The translations under genes and the position numbers were made by a program. Of a stretch of DNA of 64,000 bases, positions 48,271 to 59,103 are shown piece by piece. The notes beneath the pieces were generated by a model. The model did no database searches. It was not told where the DNA came from and saw only the letters and a list, made by a program, of their open reading frames with translations. Origin of the DNA: Halococcus saccharolyticus DSM 5350 (lineage in GTDB: Archaea > Halobacteriota > Halobacteria > Halobacteriales > Halococcaceae); the NCBI RefSeq assembly GCF_000336915.1, contig NZ_AOMD01000002.1, forward strand, positions 7,413-71,412, given 5' to 3'. How positions within the stretch are numbered: position 1 is the first letter of the stretch; every line of letters starts with the position of its first letter.

Positions 48271-49665
48271 TTACTCTGATTCGGCGTCCTTTCGCGCGTT
48301 CAGTTTGGCCTGTTCGCGGGCGCTCGGGTTCACCGACTCCTTGAACGGCACCTCCGCGACCGTGGCGTACACCGACTCACCGGGCTCCTCAGCGTACTCG
48401 TCCGGGAGATGCACCTGAAACTCGATGTCGAGATCCTCCTCGTAGATCTCGTCGTTGAGCGCCGCGTCGGTCTCGGCCTGCAGTTTCTCCGCCGGCACGA
48501 ATCCAAGTCCGATGTTGGTCTCCAGCTCGGGGTTGTGCCACGGCGACGTCATGTACCCACACTCCTCGCCCGTATCGGGGTCGGAGACGAGCCAGAAGTC
48601 GGGGGCGTAATCCCGAATCGGCTCGCCCGCCATCTTCAGGCCGACCATCTTGAGATTGAATGGGTATTCGCCGTTCTCGATCTGCTCCTGCTGGCGTTCG
48701 AGCGCCTCCTTGCCGACGTAGTCGCCCTCCTTGTCGTCGGGGACCTGGTAGCCGAGATTGACCTGGAACGGCGAGGTTTCGTGGTCCATGTCCTGGCCCC
48801 ACGAGAGGATGCCAGCCGCGATCCGACGGTGGTGGCCGGGCGCGATCTGCATCCCGCCGTGATCCTTCACGGTTTCGAGAACCGGGTCCCAGACCCGCTC
48901 GGCGTTCTCCATCGCGTCCTTCACGTAGATCTCGAACCCCTTCTCGCCCGAGAACCCGGTCTGGCTCACGAGGACGGGACAGCCGTCGATCTCGGCTTCC
49001 ATCAGGCCGTAGTAGGGAATCTCGGAGACCTCCTCGCCGACGACCTCAACCATTACGTCCTCCGAGCGCGGGCCCTGAATCTGCATCGGCGCGACGTCGA
49101 TCTCGTCGATCTCGACGTCGAAGTCCTTCCCGACGTTGACGCCCTGTAGCCACTGCATGAGCGTGGAGTCCGAGATCGAGAACCAGAACTCGTCCTCCTC
49201 GACGCGCAGCAAGATCGGATCGTTCAGCACGCCGCCGTCCTCGTTGCAGAGGATGACGTACTTGCCGTGCATCGGCTCGATCTCGGTCGCGTCCCGGGTG
49301 ATAACGTAGTCGGTGAGCGCCTCCGCGTCGGGACCCTTCACGCGGATCTGGCGCTCGACGGCGACGTCCCACAGCGTCACGGCCTCGGTCAGGGCTTCGT
49401 ACTCCGCCATCGCGCCGCCGTCCTCGGGTTCGACCAACCCGCGGGGGTGGTAGATCCGGTTGTAGACCGTGCAGCGCCACGCGCCCTCCTCGTTGAACGA
49501 CTTGTGGAAGAACGGGGATTTGCGGACCCGAGTCGAGACCAACATCTCGATCCCTGGGTCGCCCGACTGACGCAGGTTTCGCGGGAGAACGCGGTCCGAT
49601 TGGTCGACGTTCGGGTGGTTCGGATGCGAATCGCGTTCGGTGGACGGTGGTTCGGATTCTGCCAT
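48271..49665 (-). CDS. DmdA-like GcvT-family methyltransferase
   Basis: A 464-residue soluble enzyme of the aminomethyltransferase (GcvT) family, which moves methyl or aminomethyl groups to tetrahydrofolate. Visible motifs are TVYN at 66-69, WDVAVERQIRVKG at 99-111, LNDPILLRV at 147-155, IQGPR at 196-200 and the SQTGFSGEKGFEIY folate-fold segment. These resemble DMSP demethylase DmdA more than GcvT of the glycine system, but the assignment is by eye. It has a 40-residue polar N-terminal extension. No lpd or gcvH gene is nearby, arguing against glycine cleavage. A palindrome lies between its TATA box and start. Confidence 0.7.
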   Translation of the reverse strand: MAESEPPSTERDSHPNHPNVDQSDRVLPRNLRQSGDPGIEMLVSTRVRKSPFFHKSFNEEGAWRCTVYNRIYHPRGLVEPEDGGAMAEYEALTEAVTLWDVAVERQIRVKGPDAEALTDYVITRDATEIEPMHGKYVILCNEDGGVLNDPILLRVEEDEFWFSISDSTLMQWLQGVNVGKDFDVEIDEIDVAPMQIQGPRSEDVMVEVVGEEVSEIPYYGLMEAEIDGCPVLVSQTGFSGEKGFEIYVKDAMENAERVWDPVLETVKDHGGMQIAPGHHRRIAAGILSWGQDMDHETSPFQVNLGYQVPDDKEGDYVGKEALERQQEQIENGEYPFNLKMVGLKMAGEPIRDYAPDFWLVSDPDTGEECGYMTSPWHNPELETNIGLGFVPAEKLQAETDAALNDEIYEEDLDIEFQVHLPDEYAEEPGESVYATVAEVPFKESVNPSAREQAKLNARKDAESE

Positions 49666-49678
49666 CGCCCTCGATTAG

Positions 49679-56340: not shown

Positions 56341-56529
56341 CAGGGGAGCGCCGTAAGGATCGGGCGTCACGTATCCGGGGACGGCAGTGGGATCACCGAG
56401 ACTCGTTCGGGAGGGTCCGTGGACGAACGACTCCAGGTGGTGACAGTCTCGACATCGATTTCTGTGATAAACGTAGCCGATACTGGGGGCGAAAAGTGAA
56501 TACCGAAGCGCAACATTGGCGTAGCGTTC

Positions 56530-59103
56530 ATGGGCAATGCGAACACGATGCCGAGCGAGGCAGGAACCGTCGTCATCGGTGCGGGTATCGTCGGCTGCAA
56601 CACGGCGTATCACCTCGCCGATCTCGGTCGGGAGGACGTGCTCGTGGTCGACCGGGGACCGCTCCCCACCACGGGTGGCTCGTCGACCCACGCACCGGGA
56701 ATCATGTTCCAGACCGACGAGCCGAAGGTGCTCTCGAAGTTCGCGACGTACAGCCGTCGGCTCTACTCCTCGCTCGAACGTGACGAGAGCGAGCCGGTCT
56801 ACAACGAGACGGGTGGGATCGAGGTCGCGAGGAGCGACGAGCGGATGGACTACCTCCAGCGGCGGGTCGAGTGGGCCACGGCGTGGGGCGTGCCGGACCC
56901 ACAGCTCCTGAGCCCCGACGAAGTCGCGGAGAAGCTCCCGCTGGTCGATCCCGACGTCATCGAGGGCGGGTATTACTCGCCGACCGACGGCCAGGCCTCG
57001 GGCGTCCGCGCGTGTGCAGCGCTCGCCGAGGAAGCCGAGGCGATGGGCGCGGAGTTCGTCGGCCACACCGCAGTCGAGGATATCGAAACCGACGGCGACG
57101 GCGTTCGGGCGATCGTGACCGAGAACGGTCGGGTCGAATGCGACGAGGTCGTGGTGGCGACCAACATCTGGGCGCGACAGTTGAGCGAGAAGCTCGACAT
57201 CCATCTCCCGATCGCGCCGGTCGAACACCAGTACACCATCACGGAGCCGCTCGCCGAACTCGATGGCCGGGCGCAGGACGTCACCGGCGATCCCGTATAC
57301 GAGAACTACAAGTCGGTCTCCGGCGACAAGAGCGAGGTTCTCCTCCAGGACCCCGACCGACCGATCCTCCGGGATCAGGACAACGCGATGTACTTCCGGA
57401 CGCACGGTGATCGGTACGGGATCGGATCGTACAACCACGAATCCATCGTCCCCGATCCCGCAGAGCTGGGCGGCAACGAGGAGGATGGCAACCAGGCGTC
57501 GGTCCACGACTTCACCGAGTACCACCTCAACAACGCGACCCACCCCGACCGCCAGGAGAAAGCGCCGCGAACGGCGAGCGACGAGCTCATCCCCGCCACG
57601 GAGGGTGCGAACCTCGATCACAAGTACAACGGGATGTACTCCGCGTCGCCGAACGGACTCCCGGTTCTCGGCCCGGTTCAGGAGTGCGAGGGACTCTGGA
57701 CGGCCGCAGCGATCTGGATCACTCACGCCGGCGGCGCGGGCAAGGCGCTCGCCGAGTGGATGGAGACCGGGGTTCCCCGCCTCCCCGACGGTCCAATCGA
57801 CCTCCGGAACTGCAACGTCAACCGGTTCGCGCCCCACGAGGGGAGCTGGGACTTCGCCCGCGATCTCGGTGCCGAGGAGTACCAGAACATCTACAGCATC
57901 GTTCATCCGAAGTGGGTCTGGACGGAACACCAGCGCGACATCCGGCGAACGCCGATGTACCACAGCCACAGGGAACGCGACGCCGAACTGTGGGCCGAGG
58001 CCGGCTGGGAGGAGCCACACTGGTTCGACTCGAACGCGGATCTCCTCGCGGAGTACGGCGATCGCATCCCGAACCGGGAGGGATGGGAAGGGAAATACTG
58101 GTCACCGATCGAGGGAGCAGAGGCGCTGAACGTCCGCAACGGCGTCGGGCTCCACGATATGACGTCGTTCAACAAGATGGAGATCGTCGGGAGCAACGCC
58201 GGCGAGTTCCTCCAGTATCTGTGTACGAACGATATGGATCTCGACGTGGGACAGATCCGCTATACCCTCATGTGCAACGAGGGCGGCGGCGTTCGCGCCG
58301 ACATCACCGTCACTCGGGTTGGTGAGGATCGCTACCTCCTGCTGACGACCGGTCGGGAGGTCGGGAGCAACCACCTCGCGTGGGTCCGAAGCCAGGCTCC
58401 CGACGACGTGGTGGTCAACGATGTGACCTCCAACCTCGCGGCGATGGTCTGCACCGGCCCCGACGCCCGAAAGACCCTCTCGAAGGTGATCGACGCCGAT
58501 CTCTCGGACGAGGCGTTCCCGTTCTATTCGAGCCAGCGCACGTTCGTGGAGAACATCCCCGTGACCGCGCTCCGACTGTCCTACGCCGGCGAACTCGGCT
58601 GGGAACTCTACACCCCCTCGGAGTACGGCGAACGCCTCTGGGAGCACGTCATGGACGCGGGCGCGGAGTTCGACATTCGGCCGTACGGCAACGGCGCGCT
58701 CGACTCGCTCCGGATCGAGAAGGGCTTTCGACTCTGGGGCGAGGACCTCCACACCGAGCACGACCCCTACGAGGCGGGACTCGGGTTTGCGGTCGATCTC
58801 GACACCGACTTCCTCGGGAAAGAGGCGGTCGAAGCTGCCGCGAACGGCGATCTCGATCAGAAGGTGGCCTGTCTCACGCTCGACGATCCCGAGCAGATGG
58901 TGCTCGCCGACCGGCCGGTGCTGGAACGGGACGGGGACGAGGTTCTGGGATACGTCCACGCCGCCGAGTACGGCTACAGTGTGGGTTCCTGCGTAGTCTA
59001 CACCTACCTCCCACCTGCGTACGCCGAACCGGGTACCGAGGTCGACGTGCACTACGAAGGCGACCGCTACGCGGCGACGGTGCAGGAGGAGCCGCTGCTG
59101 TGA
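56530..59103 (+). CDS. FAD-dependent oxidoreductase-GcvT fusion (dimethylglycine/sarcosine dehydrogenase type)
   Basis: An 857-residue two-domain enzyme. The N-terminal DAO domain has the dinucleotide fold GAGIVG (17-22) and His54 in SSTHAPG at the place of the covalent FAD histidine of dimethylglycine dehydrogenase. The C-terminal 400 residues form a GcvT/folate domain (GLHDMTSFNKMEI, GAGLGFAVDLDTDF). Such enzymes oxidise N-methyl groups and hand formaldehyde to THF as methylene-THF. The substrate could be dimethylglycine, sarcosine or a relative. It matches the metF, folD and fhs genes nearby. Confidence 0.85.
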   Translation: MGNANTMPSEAGTVVIGAGIVGCNTAYHLADLGREDVLVVDRGPLPTTGGSSTHAPGIMFQTDEPKVLSKFATYSRRLYSSLERDESEPVYNETGGIEVARSDERMDYLQRRVEWATAWGVPDPQLLSPDEVAEKLPLVDPDVIEGGYYSPTDGQASGVRACAALAEEAEAMGAEFVGHTAVEDIETDGDGVRAIVTENGRVECDEVVVATNIWARQLSEKLDIHLPIAPVEHQYTITEPLAELDGRAQDVTGDPVYENYKSVSGDKSEVLLQDPDRPILRDQDNAMYFRTHGDRYGIGSYNHESIVPDPAELGGNEEDGNQASVHDFTEYHLNNATHPDRQEKAPRTASDELIPATEGANLDHKYNGMYSASPNGLPVLGPVQECEGLWTAAAIWITHAGGAGKALAEWMETGVPRLPDGPIDLRNCNVNRFAPHEGSWDFARDLGAEEYQNIYSIVHPKWVWTEHQRDIRRTPMYHSHRERDAELWAEAGWEEPHWFDSNADLLAEYGDRIPNREGWEGKYWSPIEGAEALNVRNGVGLHDMTSFNKMEIVGSNAGEFLQYLCTNDMDLDVGQIRYTLMCNEGGGVRADITVTRVGEDRYLLLTTGREVGSNHLAWVRSQAPDDVVVNDVTSNLAAMVCTGPDARKTLSKVIDADLSDEAFPFYSSQRTFVENIPVTALRLSYAGELGWELYTPSEYGERLWEHVMDAGAEFDIRPYGNGALDSLRIEKGFRLWGEDLHTEHDPYEAGLGFAVDLDTDFLGKEAVEAAANGDLDQKVACLTLDDPEQMVLADRPVLERDGDEVLGYVHAAEYGYSVGSCVVYTYLPPAYAEPGTEVDVHYEGDRYAATVQEEPLL

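Follow-up and report, generated by a model that had tools for sequence, protein, structure and literature searches.

Gene content of the island

The archaeon Halococcus saccharolyticus DSM 5350 carries a cluster of tetrahydrofolate (THF)-linked one-carbon (C1) genes built around a gene for a methyltransferase similar to DmdA, the dimethylsulfoniopropionate (DMSP) demethylase. The cluster lies in a window of 64,000 nucleotides, that is, the whole stretch of DNA analysed (contig C2:7413-71412, C2 standing for NZ_AOMD01000002.1), and the sequence beyond its end was read on the same contig. It constitutes a real, conserved and catabolic island, the probable substrate of which is weighed below. A preliminary description had listed DmdA/GcvT-like, FolD, PabA, PabB, Fhs, MetF-like and FAD-GcvT genes between 48271 and 59103; family searches found all of them present, on both strands, and two genes are added here, the cupin-like open reading frame (ORF) and the Bat/HTH_10 regulator. 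In window positions the genes are:

47566-48210, plus strand: Bat/HTH_10 transcription regulator, convergent with the methyltransferase gene (Pfam HTH_10 56.5 bits, BAT 25.8)
48271-49665, minus strand: DmdA-like, THF-dependent methyltransferase of the GcvT superfamily (GCV_T 151.8 bits; DmdA model 238 bits)
49867-50754, plus strand: FolD, methylene-THF dehydrogenase/cyclohydrolase (Pfam 195 and 94 bits; PRK14167 367 bits)
50765-51412, minus strand: PabA, glutamine amidotransferase (GATase 148 bits; trpG_papA subfamily above cut-off)
51409-52968, minus strand: PabB, aminodeoxychorismate synthase component I (TIGR01824 PabB-clade2 412.3 bits, cut-off 408.55)
53190-54938, plus strand, likely start 53220: Fhs, formate-THF ligase (PRK13505 809 bits, cut-off 652)
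54954-55337, plus strand: small cupin-like protein, its translation resembling a conserved neighbour cluster; also in 6 other islands
55344-56294, minus strand, likely start 56201, near which orthologues start: MetF-like methylene-THF reductase (MTHFR PF02219 51.4 bits)
56530-59103, plus strand: FAD-GcvT protein like dimethylglycine oxidase (DMGO) or dehydrogenase, here DMGO1 (full-length match to 1pj5, E 1e-171)

While this gene set stands, the borders first given to the island were too narrow, since related genes continue beyond the end of the window (C2:71412):

C2:73673-74563: a second FolD (FolD2)
C2:74821-77328: a second DMGO-like protein (DMGO2)
C2:77330-78568: threonine/serine dehydratase
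C2:78842-80635: BCCT carrier, the best model being the glycine-betaine BCCT, with a score below that model's cut-off

The genome, like many others, holds together a BCCT carrier, two DMGO proteins, a MetF-like protein, FolD and Fhs, that is, genes for betaine uptake, demethylation and C1 oxidation.

The methyltransferase

The protein encoded at 48271-49665 scored below cut-off against both the NCBIfam DmdA equivalog PRK12486 (238.3 bits, cut-off 410) and the GcvT model (163 bits, cut-off 300). A maximum-likelihood tree of 51 rows included three DmdA rows, a haloarchaeal paralogue, bacterial orthologues, GcvT and the GcvT domains of DMGO. The window protein, the paralogue and the bacterial orthologues (about 65% identity) formed one clade (100/100), and the three DmdA rows formed their own (100/100), with the window protein outside it in a sister clade. 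The methyltransferase clade adjoins one in which DmdA is grouped with several alphaproteobacterial GcvT-like proteins (support for the join 95/91), and the methyltransferase and DmdA clades both stand apart from GcvT and from the GcvT domain of DMGO; because the branches are long, the separateness of the clades is surer than their exact join. The true gcvT of the genome lies on another contig, beside gcvH, gcvPA and gcvPB. The distinction from glycine-cleavage GcvT, implied in the preliminary description, is borne out by the tree, the family scores and this separate gcvT, and judged by its sequence the protein is neither GcvT nor DmdA proper but a member of a separate sister clade.

The DmdA residues Y32, N33, D108, W120, S122, D125, E204 and Y206 are kept in 79/79 haloarchaeal orthologues, and the GcvT rows of the alignment depart from this frame at Y32, N33, W120, S122 and D125. 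Near the DMSP site the window protein has F238 where DmdA has W/Y197, Q235 for R194 and G240-E241 for K199-Q200, with further changes at Y72-H73 (L36-L37 in DmdA) and W289 (Y247). A study on DmdA evolution (PMC7487153) terms W197 DMSP-specific (W171 in its numbering, renumbered here). Phenylalanine occupies this position in 79/79 orthologues, a weak test in that two roseobacter DmdA proteins have Y there. The closest solved fold to the predicted structure was that of DmdA (3tfh, Z 34.1), with GcvT within 2 Z, so that the fold alone is not decisive; the AlphaFold model reached a middling predicted local distance difference test (pLDDT) score of 69.9 and was weakest near residues 278-307.

At about 70% identity, the haloarchaeal paralogue was considered as an island member and rejected: at the 10 loci read it mostly stands by itself or adjacent to a regulator of the Bat type, and no MetF-like gene was found in its vicinity. 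Paralogue loci (L143-L152, L054:11822-13174, L141) lie outside the C1 island.

Conserved linkage and co-occurrence

Of the 292 haloarchaeal genomes sampled, 68 have an orthologue of the methyltransferase (79-97% identity). Neighbourhoods were counted at those haloarchaeal loci where at least 15 kb of sequence surrounds the orthologue, 62 in all: a MetF-like gene was nearby in 55, DMGO in 33, threonine/serine dehydratase in 30, BCCT in 24, FolD in 23, Fhs in 17, GlyA in 15, PabAB in 11 and a formate-dehydrogenase-like gene in 8. This linkage recurs in neighbourhoods from dozens of genera and is not due to chance. A DmdD-like gene stood beside the orthologue at none of the 62 loci and a DmdB-like gene at five; in the positive control, Phaeobacter dmdA adjoins dmdD.

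The orthologue also adjoins a DMGO-like gene in five of the eight loci read from Gemmatimonadota-type genomes, and at two others it is found with genes resembling MTHFR and gamma-butyrobetaine hydroxylase, to which one of the two loci adds BCCT. Contig L118, labelled Gammaproteobacteria, matches the gene order of the Gemmatimonadota-type loci L165, L166 and L170, and its record is probably misassigned. At the alphaproteobacterial loci L139 and L140, DmdA relatives occur with an acyl-CoA synthetase and an enoyl-CoA hydratase (Phaeobacter P88 plasmid) and with MTHFR, purU and folD (Lichenihabitans plasmid), both sets being candidate demethylation modules.

Gene presence was profiled in 80 haloarchaeal genomes, half of them carrying the methyltransferase and half lacking it, with a DMGO threshold of E < 1e-100. 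The MetF-like gene was present in 40/40 genomes with the methyltransferase and 1/40 without (Fisher 8e-22), DMGO in 40/40 and 5/40 (2e-17) and Fhs in 39/40 and 7/40 (3e-14), values that serve as a guide only, the genomes being related. Within-genus contrasts are independent of deep ancestry: nine genera include genomes of either kind, and there the MetF-like gene tracks the methyltransferase in eight; DMGO tracks it in seven, and both DMGO exceptions carry a Rieske protein. In G263, the sole genome with a MetF-like gene (60% identity) but without the methyltransferase, none of the scanned neighbours encodes a demethylase-like protein. The MetF-like query found no match in three bacterial genomes with a methyltransferase orthologue; their reductases may be too distant for a single-sequence query, because the MTHFR-like neighbours at the two other bacterial loci have 29% identity. 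By linkage, co-occurrence and family placement, the cluster merits the name of a folate-linked demethylation island that it had been given, the reactions themselves being predicted.

One-carbon oxidation

The MetF-like protein scores above the gathering score of PF02219 (51.4 bits against 24) and below the cut-off of the canonical MetF equivalog TIGR00676 (64.9 bits against 293.7). It matches 16 MTHFR sequences in the PDB, the best being 7xg9 (E 1.3e-35, annotated 5,10-MTHFR), which we take to be the MTHFR of Sphingobium SYK-6. The Sphingobium enzyme, S6MTHFR, is reported to oxidise 5-methyl-THF that the GcvT-like demethylase LigM produces (PMC12585457), and by analogy the haloarchaeal protein is proposed to run as a 5-methyl-THF oxidase; its strict co-occurrence with a methyltransferase of a methyl-transferring family fits the LigM/S6MTHFR logic. 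It is not a housekeeping protein, because it is missing from nearly every sampled haloarchaeon that has no methyltransferase of this kind.

DMGO1 has the DAO, FAO_M, GCV_T and GCV_T_C architecture at full length and aligns to the Arthrobacter dimethylglycine oxidase 1pj5 over residues 11-856 (E 1e-171). The two match at the STxHAxG histidine (H in GGSSTHAPG), the covalent FAD site, and at the folate-domain aspartate D552 of 1pj5 (D in GGVRADITV).

A module leading from methyl transfer to THF through MetF-like oxidation and FolD to Fhs is well supported. The earlier proposal that methyl- and methylene-THF feed FolD and Fhs holds at the level of this module, in which the MetF-like and Fhs reactions presumably run towards methylene-THF and formate.

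Proposed pathway and choice of substrate

Gene content, conserved linkage, co-occurrence and family placement, from which we infer every reaction below, favour to a modest degree an island that imports glycine betaine and demethylates it stepwise on THF. The BCCT carrier beyond the window would import betaine, and the DmdA-like protein would transfer one of its methyl groups to THF, free of vitamin B12, yielding dimethylglycine and 5-methyl-THF, the latter to be converted by the MetF-like protein into methylene-THF. The two DMGO-like flavoproteins would take dimethylglycine through sarcosine to glycine, with one methylene-THF from each step; FolD would turn methylene-THF into formyl-THF, from which Fhs would release formate and gain ATP. 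A serine hydroxymethyltransferase (linked in other genomes) and the threonine/serine dehydratase could then join glycine and one C1 unit into pyruvate, and PabAB would serve folate synthesis. More tentatively, and with rather less confidence than is placed in the pathway as a whole, the DmdA-like protein may transfer a methyl group from glycine betaine directly to THF, needing neither corrinoid nor oxygen, in an obligate pairing with a reversed MetF-like enzyme, and would then provide a further betaine route in about one-quarter of the sampled haloarchaea and in some Gemmatimonadota.

Betaine is the best reading of the first substrate, held at little over an even chance. All 40 genomes with the methyltransferase have DMGO-like enzymes, so that the missing step is the one from betaine to dimethylglycine, for which GbcAB, BHMT and the corrinoid system MtgBC(D) are the known routes (PMC12478193). 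Within these 40 genomes the homocysteine S-methyltransferase/BHMT family was found in none, MTTB-type corrinoid methyltransferases in seven and a GbcA/CntA-like Rieske protein in seven, Rieske and MTTB occurring together in none; 26, including the window's own, hold only the DmdA-like gene among the candidates tested. The BHMT family, MTTB and the GbcA/CntA-like Rieske were all searched for in the window's own genome and none was found, which leaves the DmdA-like gene as its sole first-step candidate among those tested. MTTB-family carriers among the island genomes are G001, G007, G017, G060, G062, G097 and G276, and in several cases no more than about 15 kb separates the MTTB gene from DMGO or Fhs.

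Five genomes have DMGO but no DmdA-like gene, and all five also lack Fhs; in four of them a GbcA/CntA-like Rieske protein stands beside DMGO, BCCT or the dehydratase. The contrast with the genomes that have the methyltransferase (4/5 against 7/40, p 0.0096) is no more than suggestive; the arrangement resembles a single island in which the first step can be exchanged. The DMGO pair, the BCCT carrier and this Rieske swap favour glycine betaine over DMSP.

Several points weigh against betaine. We know of no enzyme that transfers a quaternary-ammonium methyl group directly to THF without a corrinoid, and the proposed first step would therefore be chemically demanding. A Rieske or MTTB protein is also held by 14 of the 40 methyltransferase genomes, and Haloarcula marismortui has its Rieske within the same island. 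Gene absences were judged on draft assemblies, and the relatedness of the genomes means that the Fisher values overstate independence. Growth of H. walsbyi, moreover, was not enhanced by betaine (PMC3102087).

The alternative that survives best, although unlikely, is that the same module serves another onium or betaine donor (DMSP, dimethylsulfonioacetate, carnitine, gamma-butyrobetaine or proline betaine) and that the DMGO pair handles dimethylglycine or sarcosine from elsewhere. Both tree and fold place DmdA closest among the characterised relatives of the methyltransferase, the second candidate betaine demethylase in those 14 genomes and the gamma-butyrobetaine-hydroxylase-like neighbour at two bacterial loci could be read in this way, and carriers of the BCCT family transport several such compounds. 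Glycine betaine, on the other hand, accounts better for the presence of DMGO in every methyltransferase genome and for the Rieske swap, and the DmdD- and DmdB-like neighbours expected beside a DMSP demethylase are absent and rare, respectively, at the 62 loci. DMSP, which had been named among the possible donors, is disfavoured in particular: a bona fide archaeal DmdA is improbable, for although the THF and catalytic frame is conserved and 3tfh is the top structural match, the protein falls short of the DmdA cut-off, occupies a separate clade on a long branch, has changed residues around the DMSP site and, unlike Phaeobacter dmdA, has no dmdD-like neighbour at the loci counted. Least probable of all is a housekeeping folate neighbourhood, with the methyltransferase serving as the T protein of glycine cleavage or in folate-dependent repair and its catabolic linkage incidental. 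FolD and PabAB are indeed general folate genes, present also in islands without the methyltransferase, but the true gcvT lies elsewhere with its partners, most haloarchaea without the methyltransferase also lack the MetF-like gene and Fhs, and BCCT and DMGO are among the neighbours.

Other features of the locus

Bat/HTH_10-type regulators occur near methyltransferase orthologues in 43 of 78 neighbourhoods, but are heterogeneous. Recent import of the island was considered and set aside, as its base composition (65.5% G+C) matches that of the window (65.1%) and gives no sign of it. A minus-strand ORF at 52965-55262 (765 amino acids) and other long antisense ORFs had no family match and were discarded as high-GC shadow frames of fhs and other genes. 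Also dropped was a perfect palindrome, GTTCCTCCGGAAC, which precedes the methyltransferase gene at 49680; it matches only 4 of 108 upstream stretches, two of which are the window's own copies. Two neighbouring Ferritin_2 proteins (45050-47178, minus strand), one of them fused to DUF7282, adjoin the island, and elsewhere the window encodes an ArsP_1-family permease (24763-26343, minus strand) and a heavy-metal P-type ATPase with HMA domains (9882-12503, plus strand).

Significance and relation to known systems

Glycine betaine is a major osmolyte of brines, and the proposed pathway, if correct, would explain how many haloarchaea could consume it. The DmdA-like and MetF-like genes would then form a simple marker pair for the trait of betaine use, and such haloarchaeal genes would no longer be misread as DMSP demethylases. 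Confirmation of the first step would give a known superfamily a new enzyme activity and add methyl transfer from a quaternary amine to folate, which in its direct form is, to our knowledge, known from no characterised enzyme.

With DmdA (Pelagibacter 3tfh; roseobacters) the window protein shares the GcvT fold, the THF-binding frame and a proposed redox-neutral methyl transfer to 5-methyl-THF; it differs in its clade, its score, the altered DMSP-pocket positions, its longer N- and C-termini and the neighbours of its gene. The Arthrobacter betaine/dimethylglycine cluster has, as far as we know, no pair of DmdA-like and MetF-like genes, and it releases formate by PurU, not Fhs. Common to that cluster with the dimethylglycine oxidase 1pj5 (cited in PMC3102087) and to the island are a DMGO-type FAD-GcvT enzyme and folate C1 genes. 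LigM and S6MTHFR of Sphingobium SYK-6 likewise combine a GcvT-like demethylase that forms 5-methyl-THF with a reversed MetF-like enzyme (PMC12585457), but the substrates of LigM are methoxy aromatics and its kinship within the GcvT family is more distant, whereas the haloarchaeal pair sits in a betaine/dimethylglycine island.

The suggestion that the system might be undescribed holds only in part. DMGO genes near BCCT carriers were reported in four haloarchaea by Anderson et al. 2011 (PMC3102087), who suggested use of betaine, dimethylglycine or sarcosine; the dimethylglycine/sarcosine half is thus shared, and the part formed by the methyltransferase, the MetF-like protein and Fhs, together with its co-occurrence, is absent there. 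This part was not found in the non-subscription literature searched, which yielded nothing further on a haloarchaeal DmdA or a folate-linked betaine route. The DmdA evolution study (PMC7487153) used Halobacteriales in dating and has a 'non-DmdA' clade, and the island is not discussed in its available text. With GbcAB, BHMT and MtgBC(D) (PMC12478193) the island would share the net conversion of betaine into dimethylglycine, and it would differ from them in transferring the methyl group directly to THF, without oxygen, homocysteine or corrinoid.

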